Assembly: GCF_016808095.1 (NCBI RefSeq)
Contig: NC_068979.1
Span: forward strand, 21,597,444-21,661,443
Source of the DNA: Vigna angularis
Lineage: Eukaryota > Streptophyta > Magnoliopsida > Fabales > Fabaceae
DNA length: 64,000 nucleotides
Direction: 5' to 3'
In this document: positions 4,340-64,000 of the stretch, in pieces
Position numbering within the stretch: the stretch's first letter is position 1
Layout: every line of letters starts with the position of its first letter
Notes under the pieces: generated by a model
The model's database searches: none
What the model was told of the DNA's origin: nothing
What the model saw: only the letters and a program-made list of their open reading frames with translations
Translations under genes and position numbers: made by a program

Positions 4340-4413
4340 CGGTACTGTGACAACAGTCTCGGTGGCAAAGACCGGAACTGTTGCTACAGTGGAAAGAAAG
4401 CTGGCTATAAAAG
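4340..4413 (+). promoter_or_regulatory. Core promoter of WOX copy 1 (TATA box)
   Basis: A TATAAAAG box lies at 4406-4413 at the start of a CT-rich leader typical of a plant 5' UTR. Just upstream, the block GACCGGAACTGTTGCTACAG is shared, with small changes, with the region upstream of the second homeobox copy, where an AATAAAAC box occupies the same position. Conservation between paralogues supports a real promoter. Confidence 0.6.
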
Positions 4414-4602
4414 GGTACCTCCTCAGCGTCAGAGCGCCATTTCCTGACCTAGCCTCTCTCTCTGCTCTCCTCTCTTCTCTCTTCTCTCTTTCTCTCTCTG
4501 CTCTCTTCTCGAGCATCTGGATCTGCGAGGAAGCTCTGACACCGTGCCATCTGAAGTGTCCGAGATCAGCGAGGAGCTCCTCTGCCAACCCTACTTCTCC
4601 GG

Positions 4603-5256
4603 GTAAGTCCTCGACACCTTCCTTCTTTCCTTTATGTACGTTATCACTTTTCTTCTTTCCTTTCTTTCCTCCCTTTACTGCTTTTTCTGCTATTATACCT
4701 TCTTTCTTTCTTGCTTTCCTGCTTTCCTGCTTTCCAGTCTTTCATTTCATTTTTTTTTTCTTCTGCCGATTATTTTCCACTTCCTGCTTTCCTTTATATT
4801 TCATCCTGTCCTGCTCTCTGTATTTTTTTTTTCTTTTCTGCAATACTTGTCCTCTCCCCCTGCCCGATCTATCTTCTTTCATCTCCTACAATTTCAGCTT
4901 TTCCAGTTTTCTGTTTATTATTACTCACACTAAAAACAACTAAAAATCAAACTAAAATAAAAAAGAATGGACAAAACACTGGACCTAGATCCGTTAGGAC
5001 CCTATGCGAGGACCTGGACCTAAACATGGACAAAACTGATGGACCTAAAACTGGAAAATGGACAAACCTGAGACAAGACACAGAAACATCAAAGACTGAC
5101 AGGACAAAATAAATTTAACGGGAAACAAGAACAAATAAAGAAAACACAGAACTAAGAATCTAATTTTTTTTATGCTTTTTTTTTATGTTTTGCTTTTCTT
5201 TTTTTTATGTTTTTGTTCTTTTTATTCTTATATTTTATTTTTTTTTATTTTTTTAG
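4603..5256 (+). other. 5'-UTR intron of WOX copy 1 (predicted)
   Basis: Donor GG/GTAAGTCC at 4603 and acceptor TTTTTTAG/AATA at 5255-5256, only 18 bases before the ATG. The interior is T-rich as expected for a plant intron. The second copy has the same arrangement: a GG/TAAGTC-type donor after a CT-rich leader and an acceptor just before its ATG. No transcript evidence. Confidence 0.55.
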
Positions 5257-5274
5257 AATACTAGTAGAGGAAAG

Positions 5275-5830
5275 ATGACGAGCGAGATGGAATCAGAGAG
5301 ATACACCAGTCAGCGGTGGCGTCCTACCGAAGATCAGACCCAGATGATGACCAGAATCTACAACTTTGGGGTCACACACCCAAGCCGAGCGCAAGTCGTC
5401 GAGATCACATCTCGACTAAGGATCTTTGGAGATGCCAGCGAATACAACGTGCACTGCTGGTTCAACAACCACGGCAATCGGGTCAGGCGTTGGCAAGCGG
5501 AGATAGACCCCACTGGCACTCAGTTTTCACAACTGCCGCTATATATGTACGGTAAGACTCTGATCACACCTCAATTTTTATTGATTTTTTTTTCCTCTTC
5601 AATTATTAACACAAGTTTTTTTTTTTTTTTTTTTGTTGAAAGAATACGACTGGGTGATAATGAGGGCACCGAGGCTGCTGAATCTGTTTCCCGTTCCGAT
5701 CATCATTGACGATGATAGAGATGAGAGACAAATCCCTCCACCCATGCTTCTCACATTCCGAACCAGAGCTCCCTCAACGGAGCTCTCCCTTAGACCACCA
5801 CAACCAGCTCGAGAATTCTTCCATTTTTAA
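5275..5830 (+). CDS. WUSCHEL-type homeobox (WOX) protein, copy 1
   Basis: Predicted DNA-binding transcriptional regulator in the nucleus. The CDS is 5275-5551 joined to 5643-5830, a 91-bp phase-1 intron with GTAAGA donor and GAAAG acceptor, giving 154 aa. Residues 14-73 match a WOX homeodomain: RWRPT at 14-18, Q21, Y29, G32, PS at 36-37, ITSRLRIFG at 44-52, NV at 58-59 and WFNNH at 62-66 (family WFQNH). After the intron come LLNLFPVP (104-111), like the WUS box (LxLFPx), and TELSLRPP (138-145), like an EAR-type repression motif. It is shorter than typical WUS or WOX proteins (about 180-380 aa). Unusual: the usual Q50 and A54 of helix 3 are N. The gene lies in mobile, repetitive DNA with a paralogue at 56252-56807, so it is probably a mobilised family. 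WOX identity is strong by eye; expression is unknown. Confidence 0.75.
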
Positions 5831-20970: not shown

Positions 20971-20972
20971 TT

Positions 20973-20990: not shown

Positions 20991-21019
20991 CCCCAATCGG
21001 AGTGTCATCGCACGTAGAG

Positions 21020-41300: not shown

Positions 41301-42451
41301 TGACTCAGAGTGGTGAAAAAAGGGCATGATAATCGTTTACAGCACCCCTGTAAACGATTACCCGATAGAAATAGCCAATTCGTACAGAAAGTCCATCACA
41401 GGTACTCAGTCAGGTCAACATGGGTCACCATTCGAAAAAAAAGTGAGTTTTAGGCACTTCTGCACCTGTCTGAGGCTGGTGCAGGTGTTCCAGTGGTGGG
41501 AGAGGGTGGCTGGTGATGTGATGTGAGTCCAAGGAGGGTGGGGTGACCCCGCATTGGGGGAGCAAGCTGTTCAAGGAATGACTGAGAGTTGTGAAAAAAG
41601 GGGGTGGTAATCGTTTACAGCACCCCTGTAAACGATTACCCGAGAGAAATAGCCAATTCGTACAGAAAGAAGAGGGCGGCTGGTGATGTGATGTGAGTCC
41701 AAGGAGGGTGGGGTGACCCCTCATGAGTTGGGGGAGCAAGCTGTGCAAGGAATGACTGAGAGTGGTGAAAAAAGGGGGTGGTAATCGTGTACAGCACCCT
41801 TGTAAACGATTACCCGAGAGAAAATGCCAATTTGTACAGAAAGTCCAACACAGGTACTCAGTCAGGTGAACATGGGTCACCATTGGAAAAACAAGTGAGT
41901 TTTAGGCACTTCTGCACCTGTCTGAGGCTGGTGCAGGTGTTCCAGTGGTGGGAGAGGGTGGCTGGCGATGTGATGTGAGTCCAAGGAGGGTGGGGTGACC
42001 CCGCATTGGGGGAGCACGCTGTTCAAGGAATGACTGAGAGTGGTGAAAAAAGGGGGTGGTAATCGTTTACAGCACCCCTGTAAACGATTACCCGAGAGAA
42101 ATAGCCAATTCGTACAGAAAGAAGAGGGTGGCTGGTGATGTGATGTGAGTCCAAGGAGGGTGGGGTGACCCCTCATGAGTTGGGGGAGCAAGCTGTGCAA
42201 GGAATGACTGAGAGTGGTGAACAAAGGGTCTGGTAATCGTTTACAGCACCCCTGTAAACGATTACCCGAGAGAAATAGCCAATTCGTACAGAAAGTCCAT
42301 CACAGATACTCAGTCAGGTCAACATGGGTCACTATTAAAAAAAAAACTCAGTTTTAGGCACTTCTGCACCCGTCTGAGGCTGCTGCAGGTGTTGCAATGG
42401 TGGGAGAGGGTGGCTGGTGATGTGATGTGAGTCCAAGGAGGGTGGGGTGAG

Positions 42452-45215: not shown

Positions 45216-45359
45216 TGTGTTCAGTTAATTAAACCAAATTATCCCACTGGATAACGTGTATAACTTGCAATCGTGTTCATAACCGCCCAAAACACATCCT
45301 TCCTCAAATTCGTTTCGAAAACCTCTCTTCTCTCAGTGCAAAACCCTAAACGAAATAGA

Positions 45360-46283
45360 ATGGCTGATCGTGGAACGAAGAAACAAAAGGCATCTTCTTC
45401 CATTGGTGGACGTCGCCGTCGGCGGAGTCCAACCCCGTCACCATCGTCATCCCCTCCAATGGCTACCAATGATCTCTTCTCGTCGGATGAGCAACAGGAG
45501 AAATATGCCCAACATTTCGTAAATCGGGAAATTTTGGAGAGTAAGTATCTAGAGGACGAATACTTTCAAGGAAAAAATTTTCAATTCTATGACATATTAC
45601 ACGAAGCTGGGCTGACTGAATTTGTGTGTTTAAGAAGACATTACCACCCACAATTAGTCAGAGTGTTCTATAGCAACATGTCAATATCGGATACTGGGGT
45701 TATTCGAAGCGAAGTTAGAGGTGTAAAAATTAGGGTCAGCCCTAATCTTTTTCAACAACTGACTAATCTCCCATCTGATGGTGTTTGTTACGAAGGCAAA
45801 GTTGTAGATGAGTGGAAAGAACAATACGATTCTGTCACTGCAAGGCAACTAGTGTGTAGAGATGATGCAGCCATACAATCTAGAATACTAGCGGGGCACA
45901 TGAAGGTTCAACCAAGGATACTTCATTACGTTCTCACTAGAGTATTAATTCCTCGTGCAACCAATATTGGTCAGGCATCCGAAGAGGATATTATGCTGCT
46001 ATGGGCATTTTTCAATTCCATTCACATTACCTGGGGACATCTTATTAGATATAAGATGAAAAGAGCATTAAGGGAGAACGCAAAGTTGCCGTATCCACAT
46101 TTGATAACCATCTTCATGGAACACTTTGAAGTGCCTACTGAAAGTTATCCCATTTCAGAACTGAAGTTGAAGCAAAGAATTGGTTGTGAAGTTGTAGCAT
46201 CATTTGGTTATATGCAAAATGATGAAGGAGAATGGGTTCCCAAAGGCAACGTGTCAACACTCAATTTCCTCCGGATTGACTAA
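45360..46283 (+). pseudogene. Plant-transposon-protein-domain ORF cut by an LTR
   Basis: ATG at 45360 in an AGAATGGC context after a leader with AAAACCCTAAACG. The protein begins with a basic/serine-rich tail (GGRRRRRSPTPSPSSSPP). Then comes a globular region I take for the putative plant transposon protein domain (PF20167-like): EKYAQHFVNREILESKYLED, HPQLVRVFYSNMSISDTGVI, GVKIRVSPNLFQQLTNLP, RILHYVLTRVLIPRATNIGQ, LPYPHLITIFMEHFEVPTES. Such ORFs occur with DNA transposons and as extra ORFs of Tat retroelements; the biochemical role is unknown. Native sequence ends at 46251; the last ten codons are LTR sequence. A homologous but diverged ORF lies at 61824. Confidence in the domain name is moderate. 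Confidence 0.65.
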
Positions 46284-49200
46284 ATATTTTTGTTTTATTG
46301 TATTCTCCTCATAAAAAGAAAAATTGAAAAAAATGTATATAAAATAAAAGTAAAAAAAAAAAAAAAAAAGGGATGAAAACGTTCGTCCAAACAAATACCG
46401 TTCGTCCTTCCCCACTGTTGCTGAGGCCGCTCGTCCAAACAGTGACCGTTCGGTTCTCCCCACTGAAACCGTTCATCCTTCCCCACTGTTACTGTGGCCG
46501 CTCGTCCAAACAGTGACCGTTCGTCCTCACCCACTGTTTCTGCGACCGTTCGCCCAGAAGCGACTGCTTGAGCGTTCGGTCTTTCACTATTCGGCCGTTC
46601 GGCCATGTGTTAATTTGGGACGTTCGTCCTCTGTTTTGAACCGCTCGTCCTCGCCTTTATGCGAACGTTCGTCCTCTGTTTCCAACCGTTCGTTTTATGC
46701 CTATTGCGAACGTTCGTCCTCATCTTAAAGCGTTCGTCCCGGTCTTTTAGGACGTTCGTCCTTTACCTTGTTCAACCGTTCGGCATTTCGTTTCCTCTGG
46801 ACGTTCGTCATCAACCATTCGGCCTGACAAGGTCGGTCAATGTTCAAGCTTGTGAGCGTTCGGTCTGTACTATTTGAACGTTCGTTCTTAATGTGTTTTT
46901 GTTCTCAGTTTAGCGAACGTCCAAGCCGAGCGTTCGGTCTGTTTGAGATGTCGAGCGTTCGGGTAGTGATTGTGAGCGTTCGGTTTTCGTTGGTTGACCT
47001 TGTGAACGTTCGTTCTTTGTTACTGTTTGCGTTCGACCTGTATCAGATTGTTTTACCTCGAGCGTTTGGTTTGAGCGTTCGTTCATTTAATATGAACGGA
47101 CGTTCGTTTTCTGTTTGACCGAGCGTCCAAATAGTTGGTGGCTACATTTTAAAATTGGTCTAAGCTTTCCACCAAGGATTCCCACCTCCAGCTGCCACTG
47201 TTCGCCATTAACGGTCTGACAAAGCATCCACAGTATGGGTTTCTGGCAATTAAAAAAGAGGGAGAATCATTTTGCTGGCACCTGAGTCTGCCTCCCATTC
47301 ATCTTGCTCCCACTTACCTTCAGCACCCTGGCTTCCACTCAACACCCAGACGGCAGAGAAATTGTTGGAGGCACGTGGTGAAAGCAAGCACGCGGCCAAA
47401 GTGAAAACAACTCGCAGTAGGGTTTTCACAATTTAAAAAAAGAAGAAGAGAATATTCCTAGCTGACACTTCCACCTGAGTTGGTCTTCCACGAGCGCCCA
47501 TCTGGAATCTCTGTACAGATTCCGTATGGCATCTATAAAGCCTGCTACGCCACTATGACATTCACCCACGGCCAACACCATGATCGGGGGGATTCTTTCA
47601 TCATCATGGATACAGGGAGGGGACACCAACCTTGGTTTTGGGGGCTCACGGTTAATCACCTCATCTTCACCTATTCCCAATAACCAATACGGAGGGCCAA
47701 CACCATGATCCTGATTCTTTGATCCTCCATTTTTTGGCACACAGCCGAGATCATCACCACCTTCATCCATATTCATTTACCACATTACTGAACACCATGA
47801 CCTTCAACTCCAACATCGCATGACCACCACCCATCACCAACACCTCACGGGTCAGCCTCCCAAAAGCCGCCTTCACCTCCATATTCCCACACAACCAACA
47901 ACTCACGGTCGGCCACCTTCATCTTCTTCATTTTCATCTCCAACGTCCATTGCCTCCAACCCATCATCCATCTCTGAACCAAAAAAAACTCTTCACTCAT
48001 TACCAACCACAGCGAAACCAGACACGACCATCACTCACTATAGGGGGATCCTCACCGAAAAAACCAGACAGAAGCTCCAGCTTCATCACTTCTGATATTC
48101 CTCTCGAACACCATCCACATAGCAACTCCAGCTCCATCGCACTCATCTTCATCCAGTAAGCCTTCATCCAGCATTGAAAACGCTTTACAACATCCCAGCA
48201 AGGAACATCCAATGGCTAGAGGAGTGCCTGGAAGAGGTGTTGCCAGCAGCACGTTACACCAGCACTTCCAACGACTGAGAGACCACTACAATACTCCGCA
48301 TTCAGAGGGAGGAGCACCTTATCGAAAGAGGAAAGCCAGCCACGAAGAGGACCCAGGGCTTAACAAAGATAAACCAAGCTTCAAGAGGTAAGTAATGCAG
48401 CCCGTTCCATGTTTTACTGAGTTTGGTTAGTCGTCTTTGAGTGTATCTTTGTCATACTGTTGCTACGTTTGCATGTGGATAAGTTTGCATGTATTAAGTT
48501 AAATAGATGTTGTGTGAATATTCGTACCAATCCATTGTTACCGAACAACCATCTTGACACCCACGGCCACTGCTAACACCCACGGCCAAACACCCATACT
48601 CGTCCACTCCAGCCCACCAACTTCATCATTACCATTCGACCAACTGCATCACTTCCATCTCCAACACTGTTCCAACACTACACCTATAACCCTTATACAC
48701 ATCAACATCATCATCCTCATCTTGAGACCTCGTGGCCATATACCCTTGCCCCTTTTGTTTTCACGGACAACGCTCCTTTTCAACTTCATCCCGATCACCT
48801 ACAACACCTCCAACACCCGAATCTTCAACCATATCACTTCAACCAAATCACCCAGCCACCTTGCGCCATTATCACTGAGACCACTGGTTCATCACTGTTA
48901 CCTCCCACCATACACCAACCGGGAAACCTGATACTACCAGGAACCCATCTTTGGGTCACAGCCGTCATCATCTCAAGCCCCTCAGCCACCATTTCCATTC
49001 TCAATATTACTGCCTAACTCCTTCATCACCATTGCACCACTTTATACTCCCCACCGTGACCAGTCTAAAGCCTTCCATCCAAACCACCAAGTTGTTGCCA
49101 CCATTCTTCAACCGCCGCTGTCATCCTAGTCACCGCCGCACTATCACCTTGCCTCACTACTCCCAGCCAAACTTCTCCTCCTCTCAAATCGCACCCCCAT

Positions 49201-51382
49201 CTTCATCATGTTCCCATCTAACCCAACACCACAGTGGCAGTCACTGTAAGCCGCCACCGAAACCACTTTCTTCACCGTGACCTGCGGCAATGGCACCTCC
49301 ACAACCAATGTAACAGTCACCACCGCAGCTCACTCCCCTCCGCATGCCATCACCTTCTCAACCCTGCTACCACCGTGACCACTTCGCCAGCTTCAGAACT
49401 AACGAACCCAACCATGGCTTTGGTAAACTCAGAAAACTCATCACTCCAGATCATCATCGCTACCATACTACTTCACGCGATTCAGCAGTGAAACCCGTCC
49501 CTTCACTGTCATCGTCTACACCACCTTCAAACCAAATCACCTTGAGTGTAACGAAGCTGCCATCGAGACCACCGCATTCATTCCCCATTGACGTGTCATA
49601 GCCATTAATACCACCATTGAAAGCCGTCAGCTTCCTTGCGCCACTGCGGCCTCGCGTCATCCTAGCCAACCACCACCACAACAACACAACCTTCTTTCCA
49701 TCATCAACCTCCCGGAACACCTTCGCGAGCCACTCATCTCCTCGACCACCGAATACTCTCATGCTTTCTTGAGCACCAAAACTCGCAACCAAACCCATAC
49801 CATATGTGAAACTCCCACCATAACTTCCCCCTGTAACACCAGCCCACACCGACCATCACCGTTCGCCGTCAACCGTTCATCTGCAGCGAAACCCTCAATC
49901 GCCGTATCATCAACCCATCACCTCACTTGCACCGATCTCGGGGTCACTATAGCGGCCGCCGTCTACGTCCAGGAATGATCACATCTGTAGGAGCGGTCTT
50001 GTTTGGCCTCCGCGTGAAGATTGAAGGGATTCTCTGCCTAGCAAGAATGAAGAAAGGCTTAGGCCACCCGAAAAAGGGCTTAGCCGTTTTTATTGTAATT
50101 CTGGAGATAAAAGGAATTTGGGCCTTGCGTCCACTTCCTTTCTTACACCCTCAATCTTTCATCCGCACCTCCATATTTCACCTGCACACCCCATATTTCA
50201 CTCACGCACCCCCTGTCCTTACCCTTGGGCTCGGACCCATGATAAAAAAAATGATAAAAAACAAAAGTTTTTCTCTTTGTAGCCCCTTGTACTATAACCC
50301 CTTGTTTATTTGTATATAGTAAGCTTATTTGTATTGTTTTGTATAAAAATTATAAAAATTGTAAATAATAAAAAAAATATATAAAACTTAAAAAACATTT
50401 AATGTAATAAATGAAAGCCGTGTGAGTGCTCGTGCGATCGTACGCATCAGCCTAGTACTCATTACGCAAAACAATAAAAAGAGAAAGCCGTGTGAGTGCT
50501 CGTGCGATCGTACGCATCAGCCTAGTACTCATTACGCAAAACAATAAAAAGAGAAAGCCGTGTGAGTGCTCGTGCGATCGTACGCATCAGCCTAGTACTC
50601 ATTATGCAAAACAATAAAAAGAGAAAGCCGTGTGAGTGCTCGTGCGATCGTACGCATCAGCCTAGTACTCGTTAAGCAAAACAATAAAGGAAAAGCCGTG
50701 TGAGTGCTCGTGCGATCGTACGCATCAGCCTAGTACTCATTACGCAAAAAAATATAAATATTACAATAAAAAATACCAAAAAATATAAAAATCTTCGGAA
50801 ACCAAAAACATTCACTTTTTCAAAACTACAAAAAATATCGCCTTGCAGAACTACGTGATCCTTGATTCTCCATCAAAAGTGCAGATACGTAGGAGCAAGG
50901 CCAGTCTTTGTCAGGCTCATTCTCCCAAAAATCCAAATTATCCATAACACGTTTTCAAACAATTTTCCAAACAAATTTCTCAAACAGTTTCTAAATGAAC
51001 TACGGAACCCTGATTTCTCATTCTCACATGAGAATACGTAGGAGCAAGGTCAATCCTTGTCGGGCCCAAAAAGCTAAAAAATATTGTTTGTTTTCTTTAG
51101 AGTTTTATTTCAAGGGAATGTTAAACACTTTGAAAACCACATCCACATTCGCGCATTTAGTTAAAGGTACTGCCTTAGGGCAGGCGTTGTAGGGTGCTAA
51201 TACCTTCCCTACACGTAACCGACTCCCGAACCAAGAATCTGGTTCAATTTGACCATGCCTTATAATTTTATGGTTTTTCCGTAGTTTTCCAGAATAAACT
51301 ATGGTGGCGACTCCAAAATCTCTTTTTCAATATTTTATTCCTTTTATTGGATCGTCGTCCCGTCGCGATTCCGGTTGCGACA
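46252..51382 (+). mobile_element. 5' LTR of an Ogre/Tat-type element
   Basis: Starts TGTCAACACTCAATTTCCTC, ends CCGGTTGCGACA and is followed by an Ogre-type primer-binding site. Length 5131 bp, in the range of giant Ogre LTRs. Contents in order: AT-rich start, GTTCGTCC block (46380-47120), unique stretch (47130-47460), strongly C/A-rich, G-poor stretch (about 47740-49950), T-rich stretch, five 68-bp repeats (50417-50755), and the conserved end with AATAAACTATGGTGGCGACT. No target duplication could be tested, as the right end of the element is not resolved. Short ORFs in it are not supported as genes. Confidence 0.9.
50415..50755 (+). repeat. Five 68-bp tandem repeats in the Ogre LTR
   Basis: Units contain AGCCGTGTGAGTGCTCGTGC, GATCGTACGCATCAGCCTAG and TACTCATTACGCAAAACAAT. 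Units 3 and 4 have single changes (ATTATGC, GTTAAGC). Two copies exist in the solo LTR at 16430. Confidence 0.95.
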
Positions 51383-51384
51383 GA

Positions 51385-51402
51385 TGGCGACTCCACTGGG
51401 GA
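51385..51402 (+). other. Ogre-type primer-binding site
   Basis: TGGCGACTCCACTGGGGA lies two bases after the LTR. It starts with TGG and agrees with the tRNA-Arg site reported for Ogre elements, from memory. A partial copy, GGTGGCGACTCC, lies about 75 bp upstream inside the LTR. Confidence 0.8.
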
Positions 51403-52242
51403 TCACCAGAGAGTCAGGCCATTTAATTAGATGTGCAAATTCAATGTGGTTTTTCTTTGTGTTCTTCTTCCTTTTTTTTTCTTTTTCTTTATCCTTATTT
51501 GATATTTGTCATAATTGTATCTGTGTTTGTTTTGATTATATTGAACCCTAGGATAGAAAACATGTTATATCTGCCTGGGAATTTTCTGGTTGTTTTGCAG
51601 GTGAGGGTTTGGGGTGTACAATTGCATTCTCCCTTCACACACACACATTATATGCATATCATGAGAGAGGCCCTATACCCGGGTCTGAGCGCAACTTAGA
51701 AATAGAGGGGTTGTGTAGCGGTGTCACTCTGGGATGTACTTCCTGTTTGGCTATCGTGAGAACCCCAGCCAGAGTCTGTTCTTTTCATTTGTGTCTCCAC
51801 ATCTAGTTGATTACTCTGACTGTTGTGGAGAAACAGTGAAAAGAGCCATAGCTCTGGTGGCCTGACTTAAGCATTAGGAAGCTATCCTTGTGAGTGCATA
51901 TATTTGGCTTTAGAACTTCAGTCATCCAACCTTTGATAAGGCACAAAAGGGAGAATTGTGTTTTCCTATAACCCTCATGTTCGCTTAATAAAAATCACGC
52001 ACCGCGTACATATCATCATATCTCTTTATGTTTTTTCTTTCTTTCTTTTGCTTTTTCCTTTTTCTTCGCTCATTGTTTTTCTTCATAGTCTTGTCATGTT
52101 TTGTGGATTCTAGTCAAAAATTATAAAGTTGTGATTAAGGCCTTAAGCTAAAAAGGGGAATTAACATGGAAGTTTGAGTCAAGAGGTATTCGAGTTCATA
52201 CATTTTGACGAAAAGATGCACGTCGAGTAAAGGAGGATAATA
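51403..52242 (+). other. Ogre leader between primer-binding site and ORF1
   Basis: Noncoding. Includes a T-rich tract (51450-51545), the string CCCTTCACACACACACATTA, and text typical of Ogre leaders. No conserved protein seen. Confidence 0.5.
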
Positions 52243-53750
52243 TTGGTGGGGTATAAGAATTTGTTGAGTCTGTTAGAGGTGGAGGTCCAAACATCAGCAA
52301 TTACTACTTTAGCCCAGTACTATGATCCATCACTAAGGTGCTTCACTTTCCAAGATTTCCAACTAGTACCAATAGTGGAAGAATTCGAGAAGGTCTTAAA
52401 TATACCTCTCAAGGAAAAAGCTCCATACAACTACCTTGAGCAGTATAAAGTACAGCCAATGAAGTTAGAAAGCGAGTTCACAATCAAGGGCAAAGTGAGG
52501 GGCCTTCCTCAAAGATACTTATAGGAATACCTACATCATTTGGCTTAAGAGGAAAATTGGGAAATGTTTACGGATGTATTAGCTCTTCTCCTCTATGGTG
52601 TCATGCTTTCTCCTAAATGTCAAAAACCTCGTCGATTATGCCGCTATGAATGCATTTGTGGGAGACAAAGAGCGCTGTGAGAATCTAGTCAGTGCCATCC
52701 TGGCTGAAGTTTATGAGACCCTTAATCGTTGTTATGAACTTAAAGGGGGAAGGATGTTATGTTGTCTACCAGTGTTGTATATGTGGTTCATTTCCCGTGA
52801 GACTGGAGATGCCTTAAATTCCCTGTACCCCATGGACGAATTATTGTGGTATATAATCGATTACAAGGACATTGTAAACGATTACCCGAGAGAAAGTTGG
52901 ATTTTGTACAAAAAGTCCATCACAGGTACTCAGTCAGGTGAACATGGGTCACCATTGGAAAAAGATATGATTTTTTAGGAACTTTTGCACTTGTCTTAGG
53001 ATGTTCCTTGTGAACCACATGTGAAAAGAGCAAATGAATGGGCGCAACTTTGTGCAAGTTTAAACGAAGAACAAGATAAATGGTGTGTCCCTTGGCAGCA
53101 TAGATCAGATTACATATCATTGCAGGAGGTATCCTAATGTACCCCTCATGGGTATTAGGTGGTGTATTAATTGCAATCCTATGTTAGCGCAAAAAATAAT
53201 TTGAGTATCCTGAGAGGATCGCTAACACCTGCATCTCTCGCCACATTGCAGATCATATGAGGCATGAATCTTTTGCTGAAATGTTTCATCAAGTTAAAGA
53301 CACTCGGGGAAATGTTGTTCGCTTCAAAGAAAGGTCCAAGATCATGGACTGTTAGTGGAAGTTTCCCTTAGCCAATGAATCACGGAAAGGGTTAAGACAA
53401 TCAAGTTGTAATTAATTTCCCTAACCCAAATTGCGAAAAGAAATTTCAAAATGATGAGCAGTGGATAGAAGCAACAATGACAAAACTAGAGAAGGAACGT
53501 TGCCATTCAGCTAAAAGGGGACATAAAGGTTGATGAGTCAGATGAAGGAATATGTCGTTGAAGAAGGACAAGTCACTCACAATTAGCTTTCTTCATCAAT
53601 GAAGTCATTGAAAATGTTCCTAAGATATTAGTTGATGCTGGGTCTGTAATGTCAATCATCAACCCGCCTAAGGGGATTGAAACATTCCTCAATTGCTGTG
53701 AGAAACTGATCAGACAAATGAAGAATGAGATGACTAAAGCCTGCGATGGT
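52243..53750 (+). pseudogene. Ogre/Tat ORF1, decayed
   Basis: Broken frames read as the Ogre ORF1 protein of unknown function that precedes gag: LAQYYDPSLRCFTFQDFQLV and VEEFEKVLNIPLKEKAPYNY near 52290-52430, MVSCFLLNVKNLVDYAAMNA near 52595, NEWAQLCASLNEEQDKWCVP near 53034-53090. There are several stops and frameshifts, and a 111-bp piece of the local satellite is spliced in at 52854-52964. The start is uncertain: 52243 is only the beginning of an open stretch, not an ATG. A short stretch near 53580-53700 (FFINEVIENVPKILVDAGSV) is open, but I cannot place it. Confidence 0.65.
52854..52964 (+). repeat. Satellite monomer fragment inside Ogre ORF1
   Basis: TAATCGATTACA, then ATTGTAAACGATTACCCGAG, TTTTGTACAAAAAGTCC and CAGTCAGGTGAACATGGGTC match the ~281-bp monomer from hairpin to about 110 bp. 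The left arm has ATCGATTAC instead of ATCGTTTAC. Confidence 0.9.
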
Positions 53751-54013
53751 TGACCAAGAATTCCTATGTCTAGCATTTTGGGGATTTCAGAATGATGAAC
53801 CACCTTATTGACTCTGTTTCGTGTTAATTTCCAAAATTATACCGGGGCAAATATTTTCACAGCTTTATAGTTTCTGACTAGAGAATTTGAACTATGTTTT
53901 CTTTTCTTTTCTTTTCTTTTTTATTTTTATTTTTCTTTTTTCTTAATTTGTTTCACAAAAAATACAGCTAAGCATCTAAGACACCCTAAAGGACACGAAC
54001 CAGTGGCAAAATC

Positions 54014-55404
54014 ATGGAGAACCAAGTAGAAGTTCAAGAGGGAATGAAAGCCGATATCCGACAGCTGAAGGAACAAATGAGACAGGTCCTAAAGACCCTG
54101 GATGCCTTACAAAGTCCTGGATGTTTATGCACACAATGATCACAACAAGGAGTTCCAGAAGCACAAACTTTCCCTTCCTATGGTCTTCCCCCGAATTATA
54201 CTCCACCCTCAGGAGTGGACTCGAGACATCTTGACACTCAAAAGGCCGAAGGTAATACAGCTGAAGTAGAAGATGAGCCTGGGGCAACCACTTTCACAAT
54301 TCCTAGGCAGACGATCCAACCAGGTATTGAGATCATGATAATGAAAAAACAACCTGAGACGAAGTCTCCATCTTGTGTCATTACACCAGCAGATTTTAAG
54401 GACGATAAGAGTAGATTAGAAGTCCTCGAAAAGAGGTTGAGAGCCAGAGAGGGTGAAGGAAGTTTTGAATCTGGAGATGCTAAAAAACTATGTTTAGTTC
54501 CCGATGTGGTGATACCTCCAAAGTTCAAGTTGCCAGAGTTTGAGCAATATCAGGGAAATACTTGCCCGAGGTGCCATATAACCATGTACTGCAGGAAAAT
54601 GGCAGCTTATGCCCGCAATGAAAAACTTTTGATTCATTTCTTCCAAGAAAGTTCAACTGACGAGGCTCTAACTTGGTACATGCACTTAGATACTACTCAC
54701 ATCTACTCATGGAAGCATTTGGTTGAGACATTCCTAAGGCAGTATGGATATAATAAAGATTTGACACCTGATAGAGCACAACTGTAGAACATGGTGAAGA
54801 AAGAATCTGAATCATTCAGAGAATATGCCCAAAGGTGGAGAGAGATAGCTGCTCAAGTAGAACCGCGTCTGAGTGACAAGGAGATGACTACCACGTTTTT
54901 GAGTACTCTGCAACCACCATTTTATGAGCACATGTTAAGCATCTCAGTCTCCTCAAGTTTTACTGACATAGTAGTAATTGGAGAGAGGGTTGAGAGTGGC
55001 ATAAGAAATGGAAAAATTGCACTAGGCCCAGAGCTAGTAGCCAGTTTAAACGAGTATGGTCCTAGACATGAGAAAGATAAGAAGCGAAGAGCTAATTCCC
55101 ATTTTACTGCCTATCCTCAAATGTCACATTCCTATGGGTCTAGTCGAGCCACTGAACGAAGAAATTACAATCGTGATGAGAGGGTCGCCAACTTCACTCC
55201 TATCCCCATGACCTATACGGAGCTACTACCAGATCTTCTCCGTAGAAACCTCATGAAGATTTGTCCAACTAGGCCTATACGACCTCCGTACCCAAAGAAC
55301 TATGACGTAAATGCCATGTGGACATTCAACTGAGGCATGCAAGGCTCTAAAACGTAAAGTGCAATCTTTGATCGATTCAGGATGTTTAAAGTTTGAAGAA
55401 ATGT
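54014..55404 (+). pseudogene. Ogre/Tat gag, decayed
   Basis: Begins at ATG 54014 (MENQVEVQEGMKADIRQLKE, a coiled-coil-like start) and continues in broken frames. The conserved capsid part is clear: KFKLPEFEQYQGNTCPRCHI, MYCRKMAAYARNEKLLIHFF, EALTWYMHLDTTHIYSWKHL (54525-54720), SESFREYAQRWREIAAQVEP (54800-54860). Gag would package element RNA into cytoplasmic particles. Stops occur near 54137 and at 54785-54787 (CTG-TAG), with a frameshift between. It ends near 55404 (LKRKVQSLIDSGCLKFEE). No protease, RT, RNase H or integrase follows, so the element cannot be autonomous. Confidence 0.85.
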
Positions 55405-56250
55405 AATCTAGCACTGCGGCAAGGCGTGAGTTCACCTCTACAAATGCCATGGACGAGTGAAGAGGACTCTCGGATTATTTGGAAAGCATAAGTTATTGTA
55501 AAAGTGGGAACTGATGTTGTTTTGCTCGAGCTTTAATTTGTCTCACTATGAGGTTTATGCTCATTGATATTACGCTTTCATCCATGAACTTTTAATGTGA
55601 ACTTTCATTACTTGGTATCTCCAAGGTTTACTGGAAATCATGTCCTAATAGGGTGTCGCCAAACAAAAAAAAATGATGATATAAAAAAAAAAGGTTTGTC
55701 GAAATTCGAATTGTGCAAATTTTGTTTACAAGTTCATTGTTCCTCTCTTCCTATTTCTGCATTGTCTCATATGCATAATGATTTCAAAATTTTGTTTTTC
55801 ATGCTCGTGGCGTTCGCTTTGGATTTCATTTCATAAGAAGTCATTTTTCCGTATTTTCTTTGTAAGTAATTTATTTTCTGATGAACCTGGTTTTCCATTA
55901 TTTCGTTTAGATTAGAAATTTTGTTTAGACTGAAATCAAAGAAAAACCGTAAAAATCTATTTTATTTCATCATTTGGGCAAGATTTACAGTAAGGTCGGA
56001 AAGATGATTTTGAACAAGGACATCAATTTAAATACACTCATACGATCTTAACATTTGAAAAAAAATGCATAAAAAAGAGAAAAAAAGCAGATATAACAAA
56101 AGGTGCAAAGTTACAAATTCGGAAATAAAAGCAAAATAAAACAAAAAAAAGCAGCGAAAAAAGCGGAAGCAAAGCAAATAAACAATGTTCAGAGTTCGAT
56201 CACTGGTGATCGTTAAGTTACAGACCAAAAAAAATAATAAGTGAAGGAAA
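55405..56250. other. Noncoding segment where pol would be expected
   Basis: Only AT-rich untranslatable sequence lies between gag and the antisense homeobox gene. On the minus strand it is the 3' flank of that gene, with the stem CGATCA-CTGG-TGATCG at 56197-56212 (plus-strand reading). I see no trace of reverse transcriptase or integrase motifs. Confidence 0.6.
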
Positions 56251-56251
56251 T

Positions 56252-56807
56252 TTAGCGAAAGTATTCCCGGGCTGGTTGCGGTGGTCTAAGGGAGAGCTCC
56301 GTCGAGGGAGCTCTGGTGCGGAATGTGGGAAGCATGGGTGGAGCGATTTGTCGTGTGTCCCTGTCGTCGTCGATGATGATCGGAACGGGGAACAAGTCCA
56401 GCAGCCTCGGCGCCCTCATGATCACCCAGTCGTATTCTTTCCAAAAAAAAAATAAAAAAAAAAATTGTCAATAATAAGATGAAGAGGGAAATTTTCAAAA
56501 AAAAAAAGGGGTGGAGGTGATCAGGATGCTTATCATACATGTATAGCGGCAGTTGTGAAAACTGAGTGCCAGTGGGGTCTATCTCCGCTTGCCAGCGCCT
56601 GACCCGATTGCCGTGGTTGTTAAACCAGCAGTGCACATTGTATTCGCTGACATCTGCGAAAACCCTTAGTTGAGACGCAATCTCGACGACTTGCGCTCTG
56701 CTGGGATGTGTGACCCCGTAATTGTAAATATTGGTCATCATTCTGACCTGATCGTCAGTAGGTCGCCACCGCTGACTGGTGTACCTATCCATCTCCATCT
56801 CGCTCAT
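56252..56807 (-). pseudogene. WUSCHEL-type homeobox (WOX) protein, copy 2, splice donor lost
   Basis: Paralogue of the gene at 5275. The minus-strand frame from ATG 56807 gives the same homeodomain (SQRWRPT, HPSRAQVVEI, NVHCWFNNHGNRVRR) with substitutions such as TSRLRIFGDA to ASQLRVFADV. The equivalent coding exons would be 56807-56534 and 56436-56252 (152 aa), with the intact acceptor GGAAAG and the C-terminal LLDLFPVP and TELSLRPP motifs. But the donor reads ATG/ATAAGC where copy 1 has ACG/GTAAGA, so normal splicing is unlikely. Read-through gives a 173-aa protein with a hydrophobic intron-coded stretch and no WUS-box-like motif. It lies antisense inside an Ogre/Tat element, downstream of gag. 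The conserved Gly after IF (copy 1 residue 52) is Ala here. Confidence 0.75.
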
Positions 56808-57580
56808 CTTTCCTCTCTAAGTTTTCTAAAAAAAATAAAAAAATAAAAAAAGAACAAAAACTTAACAAAAGCATAACAAAATTTTCTTTAGATTCTTTGT
56901 TCGGTGTTTTCTTTTTCGTTTTTGTGTCCTTTTAGTTTTTTGTCTGGTCAGTCTTTATTTTTTTCAGTGTCTGGTCTCGGATCTGTTTCACGGTCCTTGG
57001 AAGAGGGTCCTAAACGGATCTATGTCCTTTTGTCTTTGTCCATATTGTCCATGTCCGGTTCATACAAATTAATTCTCTTTTTAAGTTTTCTGATTTTATG
57101 GGGTACGTGGCGTTGTTCTACCCGATTGTCTCTGCCATACCTTCAAACGAAGGGAGATAAACGTCTGGTTTCCAGCCTATATACCCCTTAAGTTTAAGAC
57201 AGTTGTGTTTTTAAATGTTTTAAGTTTTTAAAATTAAAAAAAAAAAGAGGAAGAAAGAGGACTCAGAAAGAAAAGCAAAGAAGGGCAGGACGGAAATAAA
57301 AGCAGATAAATCAAAAGGAAGAATGGAAGAGCTTGCAGAAAATAAAAACATAAAGGGGAGAGGGGAAGGAAAGCAAAAATGGAAAGCGAAAGCGTAAAAA
57401 GAAAAGCAGAAGCAGAAAGCTAAAGAGTAAAGGGCAAGAACAGAAAGCGTGAAGGAAAGAAAGGCAAAGAAAGCGTAAAGGGAAAGAAAAGCAGAGAAAG
57501 GAGAGAAGGAAAGATCAGAAGAGTAGGAAAGGAAGAGGATTTAGAGCTCAGAAGACTTACCTGGAAGTGGAACACACACA
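56808..57580 (-). other. 5'-UTR intron and leader of WOX copy 2
   Basis: On the minus strand a leader ends CACTTCCAG/GTAAGTCTTC near 57562, and an intron runs to TTTTTTAG/AAAACTTAG just before the ATG. It parallels copy 1. The interior is T-rich near the acceptor and pyrimidine-rich near the donor (purine-rich on the plus strand, 57240-57540). Confidence 0.5.
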
Positions 57581-57790
57581 TAAGCTCCTCGGAAGACTCA
57601 GACGCCTTCGAAGGCACGCGGGGACAAAGGCTCCTCTCATAAATCCAGACGCTCAGAGAGAGAAGAGAGAGAAGAGAGGAAGAGTGAAGGATAGACAGAG
57701 AGTAAAATCAGAAAATTTTGCTCGACCCCGAAGGGATACCCGTTTTATTGCCGAGCAAATCCACTGTGGCTACAGTTCCGGTCGCTGCAA
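57581..57790 (-). promoter_or_regulatory. Promoter and leader of WOX copy 2
   Basis: AATAAAAC box at 57743-57750 (minus), preceded by GACCGGAACTGTAGCCACAG, the block shared with copy 1. The CT-rich leader (57660-57690) and GAGCGTCTGGAT also match copy 1. The changed TATA box suggests a weaker promoter. Confidence 0.5.
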
Positions 57791-60700
57791 ATGTCTGGTG
57801 TCGGTCTGATCTTTCTGAATTCATAAAAAAAAAAATTTGAAAATCTGAAAACGGGTAGGGTTTTGTTGGGTCGATCCGGCCCAATTCAAGACTTCTTAGA
57901 TGATCCGATTTCACAAAAAAATAATAAAACAAAAAAATCAAAAATATGATAAATGGAAAATTTTCAAAAATAATAATTGGAGTGATGTAAAATTTGAAGT
58001 GTTCAAAATTGTTTTTCATTTGCATGATAAAGGACATTTTTCAGGTTCATTGGGCCTCATTACCATGTTAGCATTCTTTAAACCCAATTCTTTCTGAAAT
58101 ATAAATTTCAGTGAAGAATTATTTTGGCAGGTTTGTAATTTCACATCACACCATTTTGTTTGTTTTTATTTCTTCTTCTACATTTTGAATAAATCTAAGA
58201 ACAAAAATATTGAAAAAGGAACAGTGCTCGAGCCCATTAGGCCCAATGGCCTTCGTGGTTTTCTCTCGAGTATACTTCTTTTGAAAATATGTCAAAAATA
58301 TTTTGTTTTCACATTTTTGCTGTTGAATGATGTTTTGTACATTTGTTCAAATTGGCTTGTGTAATTCTCTTTGCATTTGTAACAAAAATTTGAGAATGAA
58401 AGATGAACAGTTTTTGAGCCCATTAGGCCCCTTTGTCATATGAGGTTTCTCTTAAACTGGTGCATCCAAATTTCTGAAAAAATAAAAAATGCATGTCTTT
58501 GTAGATCTTGTGTTTTGAATTCAAATTTTCCTTTTCATTTGTGTGAACAAGTATTTGTGCAAAAGATAAAATTAAAGGAATTCAGATCCTTGTTTGAAGA
58601 TTTTGTCATGGTTGTAACAAGAATAGTGTTGGACTCATTGAGTCTGGTGGTGTTACAAAATTTTCTCTAGTTCAATCTTGTGAAATCTTCTCATAACAAA
58701 AAATGATTTTCTTTTAGCTTGTTCCATAAACTTTGAAAAATGCAAAAAAAAAAAATGTTTTCTTCGTCATCTTCTTGTGACAAGTTTACACGGCTCAGGT
58801 CATCTGATCCATTGGGTCAATGTACCTGGTAAGTCCAACTTCCTTCTTTGTTACTTCTCCTCAGGGCTGATCCGATCTGGATTTTCCCGTGTCAGAAAGT
58901 TGAACAAAAAAAAACATTTATTTTTCAAACGTTTTTTCTAAATCAAGTTTTCTCATATCAATTTTTGCATTGCTCACCAAGCCTAGTTTCTGCACTGGTT
59001 CCCAAGCCTTTGTTTCCATTTTTGCTCTCAAAGCCCATTTCCCATACTGGTCTGCAAAGCTCAATTCTCATGCTGACCCGCAGGACCCAGTTTCCATTGG
59101 CAAAAACAAATCCCATTTTCCATTGGCCAAGAAATCCCATTTCCCCAATGGCCAAGAAAGCCCATTTCCCATGCTGGTCTGCAAAGCTCAGTTTCCATAC
59201 TGACCCGCAAGACCCAGATTCCAAAAAAATCTCATTTTCCCCAATGGCTCACAAGGTCCAGTTTCCAGGCTGGTCCGCGAAGCCCGATTTTCAAACAAAA
59301 AAAATCTGTTTTTCAACTAGTATCATCATTTTCATTTCATTTTACTTTTCTTCATGCATAAAACCAAAAATACGTAAAAGTTGAGTCATTTTGTTTTCGA
59401 TGCAAATCATCCATTTTATGAGATTTCAAAAAAAAAATGTAATGGATGTCATAATCTCCTGTAGTCAAATGTTTGAGTCACATATTCTTAAGAGATATCT
59501 GTGTGTGCATTGCTTGAAAACATCATCCTTCAGCCTTCGCTATACCAATAGATTGGCCCAATCATGTTCTTGAGCCCAAATGATAAACATCAAGTTTTAC
59601 ACTGGGGCAGATTTTTTCGTTACCTCCACTGCTTTCATTTGGGAGATCCTGGAATCCGTTAGAAAAAAAAATTAAAAAAATGAAAAAAAGAATGAAAAAT
59701 GACTCTGTTGAGATCATTTAGTCTTTGTCTCTTAATTAATCTTTTGAAAATGAAACAACCAATATTTGAAATGATGTGTGGCCATTTTTCTTCATCCAAA
59801 AAAAAACAACAAAAAAAAAAAACAAAAATATATCCTTTGATACCCAATTTGAGCCAATAAGAAATTTCTTTTCAAAATTTTACCCAAACAAGGGTTACCA
59901 TCACGGTAGAAGTCGACTCAAATTGCAAGAGGAACACACTCAGTGATCAAATGAAGAAAATTCCTCAAAAGTGAAGTAAAAATACAAAGAATCACAAAGT
60001 GATGGCAAGCAAAGAATGAAATTTGAGAAAGGGCAAAGTAGTCAAAACAGTTTTGACGAATAACTGATACAAAGTATAGATGGTAACCCTTGTTTTTCAA
60101 AAAAAAAATACCCACAAAAATTTATTTGAGCCTTTATATCCTTTCTTTCAACACCCTTTAGCGCAAGCCACATTACCAGCCCAATAAAAGTCCACACAGA
60201 TTGAATAATGGTTGCTTAATTTTTCATAAAGTTTAATTTTCGAGACAAATCAAAATGACTAACAATGCAGTCATAAAAAAAAATGAAAAATGATGAAAAA
60301 TAAATGTCCTCGGATGAAGGGAACTCCCTTTTGATTAAGATTTTACAAAGGAAAATCAAACCGTTTGGGGCAATCTTTTCAAGCCAATCCTTTCCATATC
60401 CATCACAAATTCCTGAACACATTCAAATCCCATTCAAACTCTTCCCCCGGGTCCCAAACTTGGGGCAACTTTGTTAGTCTCAGATTTGTTCCATCTGAAC
60501 CCTTGTTGGGCCTCTCAGATTTGTCCGTACTGAAATTCATAGATCCACCCTCAAAACAGGGGCAGACACTTTGGGGTTTTGTATGATTTTGAGTCCATCT
60601 TATCATTCGTAAACTCAAAATGGGGGGCAACCTTTTGTTGAACCTCGCTTAATTGACTCATACCCAAAACCAAGGCGTGACTTTCATATGCTTCAGCCCA

Positions 60701-61820
60701 TTCAGAGTATTGAGCAACTTTGTTAAATCTCAAATTTTTTCATCTGAGTATTCAAAGCTCATACAAAGACTGGGGCATCCCTTGTTGGGCCTTGCATGAT
60801 CTTGGTTAGCCCCGAACTTCAAAGAAATCCATCACCACCAAAATTGGGGCAATTTGCAAATCCCACATGATATTCTCACTCCCCGGGTTCGTGACTTATT
60901 CCCTCACAATTCACAGATACATTTGTCCATGCAAATACTTTTAGCATGCTCCAAACTGGAGCAGCTTCTGGGTATCTACTACCTCACATGGGCCTTTGTA
61001 GCCGTTTAAGGAGTAAGAGGTTCAAGTAGCCAACCCGGTACTCTCCAAATCCTTCCAATCATCCTCCACATATTTTAACCAACCTCTGATATCAAGCATG
61101 TACACACTAGTATCTCGTCAAGAAATGCGTAGCACACAAACTTCATTTTGCACAATTGAATTTAGAATTGGACATCCATTGAAAGGAAATTGGAAGTCTA
61201 GATCGTCATAAATTTGATGATTTCAAAGGAAACAAATTGACTCTAAAAAAAATGTGTCACAGTTTCATAATCTACCCATACATCATGTACATGTTTTCAT
61301 CAACTTTGAATTTGCCTCCATGTATATTCATCAATTTTCCTTCCTTCAAAAACACAAAAAAAATGCATCAAAGTTTTCCTCTCTAATTTCAAAAATTTCA
61401 TCAAATTTTTCTTCCTTCAAAAAGACAAAAAAAATGCATCAAAGTTTTCCCCTCCATGTACATTACATCAATTTTTCTTCTTCAAAAAGACAAAAAAAAA
61501 TGCATCAAAGTTTTCCTCTCTAATTTCAAAATTTCATCAAATTTTTTCTTCTTCAAAAAGACAAAAAAATCAACATGTATCAAAGTTTTCTTCTCTAAAT
61601 TTCAAAATTTTCATCAACCAAGTTTCTCTTGCATATCAAGATTCCATATACTTGTACAAAAATGCAACACCTTGTTTCTTAATTTAAAAATTTTCAAAAA
61701 AAAAAAATCAAAAATCAAAATCAAAAATAAAAAAATTTTTCAAAATTTCAACCAATTCCAATTTTCAAATTCAAAGCAATCAAACATTTTGCTTTTTGTC
61801 ATTGGTATCTCGGCCCTCTG
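57791..61820 (+). other. Ogre/Tat-like 3' noncoding region
   Basis: No gene supported. The text is typical of the spacer downstream of pol in Tat elements: repeated AGCCCATTAGGCCC-type strings (58047, 58230, 58418), a degenerate tract with CTGGTCTGCAAAGCTCA (58974-59300), ACACTGGGGCAGATTTTTT near 59598, and recurring TTGGGGCAACTTTGTT (60461 and later). Poly-A and poly-T runs are common. Small ORFs are by-products. Confidence 0.5.
61335..61620 (+). repeat. ~65-75-bp tandem repeats upstream of the second transposon-protein ORF
   Basis: Four degenerate units with CTTCAAAAAGACAAAAAAAA, ATGCATCAAAGTTTTCCTCT and TTCAAAATTTCATCAAATTT. The units encode nothing conserved. Confidence 0.85.
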
Positions 61821-61823
61821 TAA

Positions 61824-62891
61824 CCATCAAGAAGAAGAAGAAGAAGAAGCTATGGATCGGAAAGCACACCTCTTGCACGTGGTCCAAATATTCATGGGTG
61901 GATTTCCGATGATGGAAAGCATGAAGAATATCTACAAAAGTGGAAAGAACGCAAGATTCTTCATCAAAAATTTGTAGATCTCAATTGGTTTACCACACAT
62001 CAATTTCAATTTTCTCAGCAATTGATTGAGCAAGGTGTTCAGCATCTACTGCAACTTCAAGGGAGTTACTATCCAGATTTGGTAAGAGTATTCTACTACA
62101 ATCTAAAATCCCAAAATGGTATTATTTACACTCGTGTAAAAGGGATAGATATCATTCTGGATAATGACATTTGGACAAATGTTGCTCATCTTCCCATCTT
62201 AGAAAATACCATGCATGTGCCAAATGACTTTGGTGATTTTAACAAAATTTTGGCATATCGCTCTTTCATGCGCAACCCTCAACAACATCTACCAAATAGG
62301 AGATATCTTCTTGGAGGAAATCTTAGAATGGAGGAAAGGGTTCTTCATTATCTTATTGTATGGTTGCTTTGTCCAAGAGGCTCAAACTTAGCACAATGCT
62401 TTGAAATTGATCTCATGATCATGTCTGCCATTACTCAAAATATCAAAATCAATTGGGCAGATCTCATCTCCGACACTATTGTAAGGGCAAAGAGGTATGA
62501 TAGAGGTCATCTTCCATATCCCCTCCTTATTTCCTTAATCTGTGTTTATAAAGGAGTTGATGTTACGGGAGAGAAATCTCTCACCGTCTTAAGAAATCAT
62601 GAAATTGAGGAATCAACATTGCATCAAATGGGGTTTATACGACAAGGAAATATGTTTGTCCGTGCTGAAGATGATATTGCACAAGAAGAGGAAGCATCAG
62701 CTGAAGAAGATGAAGATATTCCTCTGCCTCATCCAACAAATGTTGCTGGCCCATCCCATCCTCCACAAGAATATAGTCTAGAAAGTATATCTAGACAAAT
62801 TGAAGAAATGGCCTTTATGCAACAAAGAAGGATGGATGATATGATGACTTATCACACTTGTCAACACTCAATTAAAAAAAAATGTATATAA
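61824..62891 (+). pseudogene. Second plant-transposon-protein-domain ORF, cut by an LTR
   Basis: Open from 61824 to 62891, with native sequence up to 62859. Conserved blocks parallel the ORF at 45360: EEYLQKWKERKILHQKFVDL, GSYYPDLVRVFYYNLKSQNG, VKGIDIILDNDIWTNVAHLP, RVLHYLIVWLLCPRGSNLAQ, HLPYPLLISLICVYKGVDVT, then an acidic tail (EEEASAEEDEDIPLP). No ATG lies in frame upstream of the domain; the nearest, 61852, is in another frame, so there is a frameshift or an unseen intron. The frame ends in LTR sequence starting TGTCAACACTC at 62860. Role unknown; such domains occur in DNA transposons and as extra ORFs of Tat elements. Confidence 0.65.
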
Positions 62892-64000
62892 AAAGAAAAA
62901 AAATAAAATAAAAAAAAGGGATGAAAACGTTCGTCCAAACAAATACCGTTCGTCCTTCCCCACTGTTGCTGAGGCCGCTCGTCCAAACAGTGACCGTTCG
63001 GTTCTCCCCACTGTTGCTGAAACCGTTCGTCCTTCCCCACTGTTACTGAAAACGTTCGTCCAAACAAATACCGTTCGTCCTTCCCCACTGTTGCTGTGGC
63101 CGCTCGTCCAAACAGTGACCGTTCGGTTCTCCCCACTGTTGCTGAAACCGTTCGTCCTTCCCCATTGTTACTGTGGCCGCTCGTCCAAACAGTGACCGTT
63201 CTGTTCTCCCCACTGTTGCTGAAACTGTTCGTCCTTCCCCATTGTTACTGTGGCCGCTCGTCCACACAGTGACCGTTCGTCCTCACCCACTGTTTCTGCG
63301 ACCGTTCGCCCAGAAGCGACTGCTTGAGCGTTCGGTCTTTCACTATTCGGCCGTTCGGCCATGTGTTAATTTGGGACGTTCGTCCTCTGTTTCGAACCGC
63401 TCGTCCTCGCCTTTATGCGAACGTTCGTCCTCTGTTTCCAACCGTTCATTTTATGCCTATTGCGAACATTCGTCCTCATCTTAAAGCGTTCGTCTTTTAG
63501 GTGGTTCGTCCTTTACACTGTTCAACCGTTCGACATTTCGTTTCCTCTGGACGTTCGTCATCAACCATTCGGCCTGACAAGGTTACATTTCGGTCAGTGC
63601 TTGTGAGCGTTCGGTCTGTACTATTTGAACGTTCGTTCTTAATGTGTTTTTGTTCTCAGTTTAGCGAACGTCCAAGCCGAGCGTTCGGTCTGTTTGAGAT
63701 GTCGAGCGTTCGGGTAGTGATTGTGAGCATTCGGTTTTCGTTGGTTGACCTTGTCAAAGTTCGTTCTTTGTTACTGTTTGCGTTCGGCCTGTATCAGATT
63801 GTTTTACCTCGTGAGCGTTTGGTTTGAGCGTTCGTTCATTTAATATGAACGGACGTTTGTTTTCTGTTTGACCGAGCGTCCAAATAGTTGGTGGCTACAT
63901 TTTAAAATTGGTCTAAGCTTTCCACCAAGGATTCCCACCTCCAGCTGCCACTGTTCGCCATTAACGGTCTGACAAAGCATCCACAGTATGGGTTTCTGGC
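62860..64000 (+). mobile_element. Ogre/Tat-type LTR, 5' part, runs off the window
   Basis: Starts TGTCAACACTCAATT and matches 46252-47260 closely, through ACGTTCGTCCAAACAAATAC to GGACGTTTGTTTTCTGTTTG and CAAAGCATCCACAGTATGGG. Differences: about 60 bp missing after the first 15 bases, and a gain of ~120-bp units in the GTTCGTCC block (63000-63260). No polypurine tract precedes it, so it may be an independent insertion rather than the 3' partner of the LTR at 46252. Confidence 0.85.

Follow-up and report, generated by a model that had tools for sequence, protein, structure and literature searches.

An antisense WOX-type homeobox gene carried by Ogre/Tat retrotransposons and a second retroelement type in Vigna angularis

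We analyzed a window of 64,000 nucleotides of the Vigna angularis genome, by which we mean the whole stretch of DNA, in which two copies of a WOX-type homeobox gene occur. Copy 2 is a three-exon WOX gene at 56252-57783 on the minus strand, inside a plus-strand LTR retrotransposon. The gag remnant, primer binding site (PBS) and LTRs of this element all read on the plus strand, so that the first-pass annotation was right to place the gene in antisense within a plus-strand Ogre/Tat element. The features are as follows.

4350..5830, plus strand: copy 1, with promoter box, TATA, exons 2 and 3 and an open frame
46252..51382, plus strand: 5' LTR, TGTCAACACTC ... GCGACA (from LTR comparison with the related element X and the repeat of the start motif)
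51385..51401, plus strand: PBS, TGGCGACTCCACTGGGG (the same site adjoins the LTR end in X and in L057)
52231..53195, plus strand: broken ORF1 remnant (DUF7745)
53957..55400, plus strand: gag remnant, in-frame stop at 54785-54787
56252..56436, minus strand: copy 2 exon 3, with WUS-box-like LLDLFPV, EAR-like TELSL and stop at 56252-56254
56437..56534, minus strand: copy 2 intron 2, donor AT
56535..56825, minus strand: copy 2 exon 2, homeodomain, ATG at 56807
56826..57561, minus strand: copy 2 intron 1, GT...AG (by eye)
57562..57743, minus strand: copy 2 5' UTR exon, start approximate, end CCAG/GTAAGT (by eye)
57744..57783, minus strand: WOX promoter of copy 2, box GACCGGAACTGTAGCCACAGT and altered TATA CAATAAAA (motif scan)
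57790..61823, plus strand: spacer from WOX to the 3' end, common to other copies
61824..62891, plus strand: Transposase_32 ORF ahead of the 3' LTR start (Pfam)
62859..64000, plus strand: 3' LTR, leaving the window at its edge

The LTR start motif occurs at both 46252 and 62859, and the two LTRs showed 94.3% identity over 866 columns (46397-47247 versus 63147-64000). The segment 50354-51382 was 87.5% identical to the end of the LTR of X. As had been noted from the letters alone, gag is decayed (to about 55404) and pol is missing: the gag remnant contains a stop, and no pol match was obtained at E 1e-8 in 46001-64000. No purine tract of the kind found ahead of the LTR in X was seen before 62859. 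Since the Transposase_32 ORF, for which no counterpart was found in X, occupies its place, either the 3' end of the window element would have been rearranged or the junction at 62859 would be unusual. Two different Transposase_32-like ORFs, at 45264-46283 and 61824-62891, end just past the LTR starts 46252 and 62859; the Pfam match rests on the second, and the first may be left over from an adjacent unit.

We also conducted a homeodomain search of the 448-Mb, 33-contig genome, which listed 150 matches out of 631 candidates, and fetched 10-kb pieces around 20 matches and pieces of 1.2-1.4 kb around another 20. Of these 40 regions, 39 contain WOX copies of the same families (20 of family A, 14 of family B and five of family Bp). 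The count falls short of a census, as the 150 matches do not include copy 1 and some 108 of them were unread; the sampling leaned to matches of 177-186 bases. The only region resembling an ordinary WOX gene was L042, presumably WOX9. Long flanks were available for 22 loci, namely the 20 fetched and copies 1 and 2 of the window, and 18 of these could be placed in LTR elements that have their own marker. The other four are L026, which has an Ogre-type spacer, and L021, L028 and copy 1, which have no assigned carrier. When the carrier strand was read from the PBS, gag, ORF1 or pol marker, WOX was antisense in eight of eight Ogre-type loci and in all 10 loci of a second type, whose PBS corresponds to tRNA-iMet. 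Two loci have element pieces on the same strand as WOX: in L026 they resemble the Ogre LTR and lie outside the shared block, and in L028 the piece is an integrase match some 1 kb past the gene. These same-strand pieces were taken as probable neighbouring elements.

The eight Ogre-type loci are the window element, L010, L011 (a near-copy of L010), L016, L023, L024, L025 and L027, with L026 left out. The spacer beside WOX is common to the window element, L010, L011, L016 and L023-L027, its pieces being mostly 76-92% identical to the window. In L010 (open ORF of 1205 aa), L011 (99.7% identical) and L027, pol lies just upstream of WOX on the opposite strand, and L016, L024 and L025 contain ORF1 and/or gag, so that other Ogre/Tat elements do carry this gene, as had been proposed. 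L057, which adjoins L010, contains the PBS, ORF1 (513 aa) and a gag-protease-G-patch ORF (1207 aa). Given this anatomy and the strand of the three pol genes, WOX is therefore antisense just 3' of pol. An additional RNase H between RNase H and integrase is a mark of Ogre or Retand (PMC6317226). The window element has no pol, and this was examined on the pol of L010, which showed RT at 223-382, RH at 446-576, the additional RNase H (RVT_3) at 645-752 and integrase at 843-1016. The gag-protease ORF (L057, 1207 aa) is separate from the RT-RH-INT ORF (L010, 1205 aa), in pieces read apart, and ORF1 of L057 was counted as a 5' ORF with a plant mobile domain on a DUF7745 match of 433 bits, the mobile domain itself being below the cut-off (E 5e-4, 19.7 of 34.9 bits).

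X (C1:43958200-43996199, around L025) is a tandem LTR-internal-LTR-internal-LTR unit with the target site duplication (TSD) AACAC, and it contains WOX twice. Its internal regions showed DUF7745 matches, and gag, RT and integrase matches were all absent. This layout rules out a location of WOX inside the LTR, as L025 had hinted. A later, separate insertion of WOX with its own TSD was also rejected, as the position and the flanks are common to several elements. Unrelated flanks or a late insertion would have spoken against the first-pass annotation, and neither was found.

The Ogre/Tat assignment is supported for copy 2 and its relatives. However, the gene also has a second, non-Ogre carrier. 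In nine loci (L009, L012, L013, L014, L017, L018, L019, L020 and L022), WOX is flanked on both sides by repeats with matched lengths of 2.0-3.5 kb, whose pairs are 98.5-99.97% identical (some over 99.7%), and the PBS TGGTATCAGAGC (tRNA-iMet) is opposite in strand to WOX. The junction of LTR and purine tract was readable in most of the nine. Clear 5-bp TSDs were found in six: L009 (CCGGG), L012 (CCCGA), L014 (GACGG), L018 (TTTTC), L019 (TAAAT) and L022 (TAGAG). L013 has no TSD, L017 is a tandem with its far end outside the fetched piece, and the second LTR of L020 is incomplete in the match. With its LTR pair, PBS, purine tract and 5-bp TSD, the iMet-type carrier is an LTR retrotransposon, and these carriers have inserted recently. 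Full-length copies with both LTRs and a TSD, the evidence first asked for, thus exist for the iMet type and, on the Ogre side, for the pol-less tandem X. L015, which contains a family B gene, has the same iMet PBS and junction, and together with the nine elements it makes up the 10 antisense iMet-type loci. Queries derived from the window matched neither gag nor RT nor INT at E 1e-4 in L009, L014, L015, L018, L019, L020 and L022, which suggests that the iMet-type carrier is non-autonomous; L009 has short DUF7745-like matches within its LTRs. An LTR of the iMet type is 85% identical to window 8978-11395 and 71-79% identical to parts of window 42498-43760, but the carriers could not be read as Tekay, as no pol was linked to the LTR. 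Tandem LTR-internal-LTR-internal layouts occur in both carrier types (X and L017).

Copy 1 begins exon 2 with an ATG at 5275 and continues to 5551, followed by a GT..AG intron 2 and exon 3 at 5643-5830; in the homeodomain exon it is 86.5% identical to copy 2 at the amino acid level (copy 1 at 5275-5830, plus strand). The proposal that copy 1 is flanked by retroelement-like DNA of the minus strand was not confirmed: neither PBS type is present near it, and no Ogre protein match was found at E 1e-8 in window 1-21000. The segment 8978-11585 near copy 1 is 85-92% identical to parts of the LTR of the iMet-type L018, in an orientation that would place WOX on the opposite strand, and is perhaps a solo LTR.

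Next, we examined what the WOX copies encode. The homeodomain exon of copy 2 (56538-56807, minus strand) matched Pfam PF00046 at E 1.3e-7. P0002, a close relative of copy 2 (93% identical), matched STENOFOLIA (E 6e-11) and WUSCHEL (E 3e-10) in the PDB, and its predicted model (14-row alignment; pLDDT mostly 75-88 in the homeodomain and 59 overall) matched the DNA-bound WUS homeodomain with a target TM of 0.92. A WOX-type homeodomain is thus found in copy 2 by Pfam and in P0002 by both PDB sequence and model, and the sequence and fold matches of P0002 rule out a chance similarity to WOX. Family B has the motifs TLDLFP and ELSLRL, and family A, including copy 2, has LLDLFP. The WUS box follows the pattern TLxLFP, and the two family B motifs fit the WUS-box and EAR patterns. 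While the homeodomain fold and sequence resemble those of WUSCHEL/WOX proteins, the proteins differ from them in having about 150 residues, in occurring as many dispersed, element-borne copies, and in the recognition helix, which reads WFNNHGNR or WFQNYGYR instead of the WFQNHKAR of WUS. In a homeodomain tree of 23 rows and 84 columns, families A-C did not group with WUS/STF, with weak supports.

The gene structure is retained across copies. The intron-2 donor is GT in 41 of 42 copies, the exception being copy 2, and the acceptor is AG in 40 (exon 3 of L045 was not found and L047 was unclear); the 42 rows include the near-copies X2 (of L025) and L011. The expectation that antisense placement preserves introns therefore agrees with the 41 copies in which intron 2 is delimited. 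An acceptor AG precedes the ATG at the end of intron 1 in 21 of 22 loci, except in L023. All 22 loci with upstream sequence have a box near GACCGGAACTGTnGCnACAGT (up to three edits, no shuffled control), which starts 30-35 bp ahead of a TATA-like GCTATAA in 21 of them; L015 of family B has both, as family A does. The promoter palindrome was absent in all seven LTRs checked, so that direct control of the LTR through it is unsupported. In intron 1, a non-coding block, GGCTGGAAA...CTTCGTTTGAAGGTATG, looked alike in families A and B by eye (L015, about 4570-4650; copy 2, window about 57100-57190). Exon 2 has a premature stop in L023 and L054, and exon 3 is shortened in L046 and L053. Copy 2 itself is probably non-functional, because its intron-2 donor has changed from GT to AT and its TATA position reads CAATAAAA, the sole TATA loss among the 22 loci. 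Thus, the idea that a functional, intron-bearing gene is copied by the element holds for the introns kept across the family, but not for copy 2, which is damaged.

To characterize selection, we calculated dN/dS as summed NG86 values over pairs with dS > 0.05, leaving out L045 and L046. The value was 0.150 for family A (238 pairs, median dS 0.58), 0.145 for family B (61 pairs; pair median 0.34, range 0.05-1.54) and 0.50 for family Bp (10 pairs). Within family A, it was 0.164 among Ogre-type rows (28 pairs, including L026) and 0.358 among iMet-type rows (32 pairs, a set that contains L055, of unassigned carrier), with a median of 0.123 between the two carrier sets. As comparison genes, the pol of L010/L027 showed 0.104, and the gag of the window and L024 showed 0.52 and 0.34. 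We read these values as showing that selection has preserved the WOX protein; the high values (iMet-type A, Bp and the upper family B pairs) fit dead copies, as expected.

An alternative is that an ancestral element caught a WOX gene once and that the copies are intact merely through their youth. Several carriers are indeed very young, as their LTR identities show, and the dN/dS value is higher in the young iMet-type copies. The regions were also selected by homeodomain score, which biases the rows, near-copies among them, towards intact frames and pushes dN/dS down. However, we judge that this bias does not explain a value of about 0.15 at a dS of 0.6. Moreover, synonymous sites between families A and B are saturated (262 of 276 pairs), and yet the homeodomain, the LFP motif, the EAR-like motif, the splice sites and the promoter box (in family B, that of L015) have been kept. 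Such a passive passenger therefore seems improbable.

We also considered the possibility that the host expanded its WOX family for its own reasons and that the elements merely moved the gene. Gene annotations treat the copies in this way, with database names such as WOX5-like and WOX4-like, and a WOX family expansion has been reported for Vigna reflexo-pilosa, with no link to elements in the text available from that report (PMC10357499). Carriers, too, were assigned from the 22 long-flank loci, while 19 further copies lie in short pieces. However, the 18 long-flank loci in marked LTR elements and the Ogre-type spacer of L026 argue against this explanation, as does the finding of an ordinary WOX gene in just one of 40 regions, and we regard it as highly improbable. 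It is hardly credible that the antisense transcript is the functional product, by dsRNA or siRNA control of the element as proposed for antisense ORFs in general (PMC7264820), when the constraint is on the protein, with family A dN/dS values of 0.118 in exon 2 (homeodomain) and 0.200 in exon 3 (C-terminal).

We thus consider it likely that WOX is a selected, protein-coding accessory gene of Ogre/Tat elements in Vigna that is also present in a second carrier. Whether WOX and element phylogenies agree had been left as a check, and the answer was mixed. In a family A DNA tree of 23 rows, carrier type required one change (19 rows labelled, L026 as Ogre-type, and four unlabelled). On the other hand, WOX is the more diverged gene between L010 and L027, with a dS of 0.61 against 0.29 in pol, and therefore WOX and the element have not always travelled together; exchange of WOX between elements is likely because of this difference. 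The family B gene in the iMet-type carrier L015 would mean a further event or an older root.

Matching proteins are mainly from Vigna. All 57 protein matches of copy 2 were named Vigna angularis, and the family B gene of L015 matched 10 V. angularis proteins and one V. umbellata protein. An alignment used as query recovered P0072 of V. radiata, P0079 and, from other plants, six WOX-like proteins. Because the search depends on shared 5-residue words, absence in other species is weak evidence. P0079 (146 aa, on a 1512-base ENA contig) has TLDLFP and ELSLRI and is a distant WOX-like relative, which may be the same kind of gene outside Vigna.

Extra antisense ORFs are known in Tat elements, as the first-pass annotation noted: the accessory ORFs called aORF-3R include gene23 of maize Grande, RIRE2, ORF4/TRP28 of Silene Retand and PvRetro13 (PMC7264820, PMC11963269). 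Like the azuki gene, they lie in antisense downstream of pol and ahead of the 3' LTR in the majority of copies; gene23 of Grande is driven by a promoter of its own, and its product is nuclear (PMC7264820, PMC11963269). However, their proteins reportedly have no clear relatives outside elements, some having SMC or TRP28 domains, whereas the intron-containing azuki gene, found in two unrelated carriers, encodes a homeodomain protein of the WOX type. A screen of 121 angiosperm genomes reported 15 unusual domains; its main text contains neither 'homeo' nor 'Vigna' (PMC9289625). The same paper describes a large orchid Ty3/gypsy element with Ogre-like features and a host-type domain, an AlkB-type m6A demethylase, in an extra ORF; its cargo is an RNA demethylase, while that of azuki is an antisense, intron-bearing developmental transcription factor with its own promoter. 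Among the matches listed from the open PMC literature, no title or abstract start described a plant LTR element with a WOX or homeobox gene, in line with the earlier view that a homeobox cargo would be new. A review describes no clear protein similarities for plant antisense accessory ORFs and argues against their origin as transduced genes (PMC7264820). In contrast, the ORF described here is plainly a WOX gene, and its origin and function are therefore testable.

We propose that Ogre/Tat LTR retrotransposons in Vigna acquired a gene of the WOX family, which settled in them as an antisense accessory gene, and that a second, apparently non-autonomous retroelement type likewise came to carry it. 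Because antisense introns are not recognized in the element's genomic RNA, each transposition copies the promoter and introns along with the coding sequence, as the anatomy shows; this is a route for propagating an intron-bearing gene by reverse transcription. WOX would be transcribed from its own conserved promoter and spliced to give a protein of about 150 residues, with a WUSCHEL-like homeodomain followed by repressor-like motifs. The protein may repress in the nucleus through its EAR-type motif, to the benefit of the element. As a DNA-binding repressor acting in trans, it could tune where and how strongly elements or host meristem genes are expressed. WUS-clade proteins act in shoot stem cells. 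Germ cells descend from shoot stem cells (PMC7560203), and meristem action is therefore the most natural guess. We suggest, tentatively, that such a trans repressor would help the elements pass along the stem-cell lineage into the germ line. It is more doubtful whether retroelements took over a WUSCHEL-type repressor to alter host meristem or germ-line cells for their own spread, sharing it in trans with non-autonomous relatives. This would be a plant counterpart of growth-regulator capture by retroviruses, with introns kept through antisense placement. HBZ of HTLV-1 is likewise an antisense nuclear regulator in a reverse-transcribed genome (PMC11963269), although the comparison is one of working only, as HBZ shares no origin with WOX and belongs to another protein class. 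The WOX expansion reported in Vigna (PMC10357499) may also be element cargo and not host gene duplication.

Two further features lie between the WOX copies of the window. A tandem array at 25800-42450, about 16 kb long, consists of copies that are mostly 94-99% identical, and a 150-bp segment of this array has further matches in the Ogre-type internal region and close to copy 1. At 20969-25497, long open Ty3/gypsy gag-pol frames contain RT, RNase H, integrase and a weak chromodomain.
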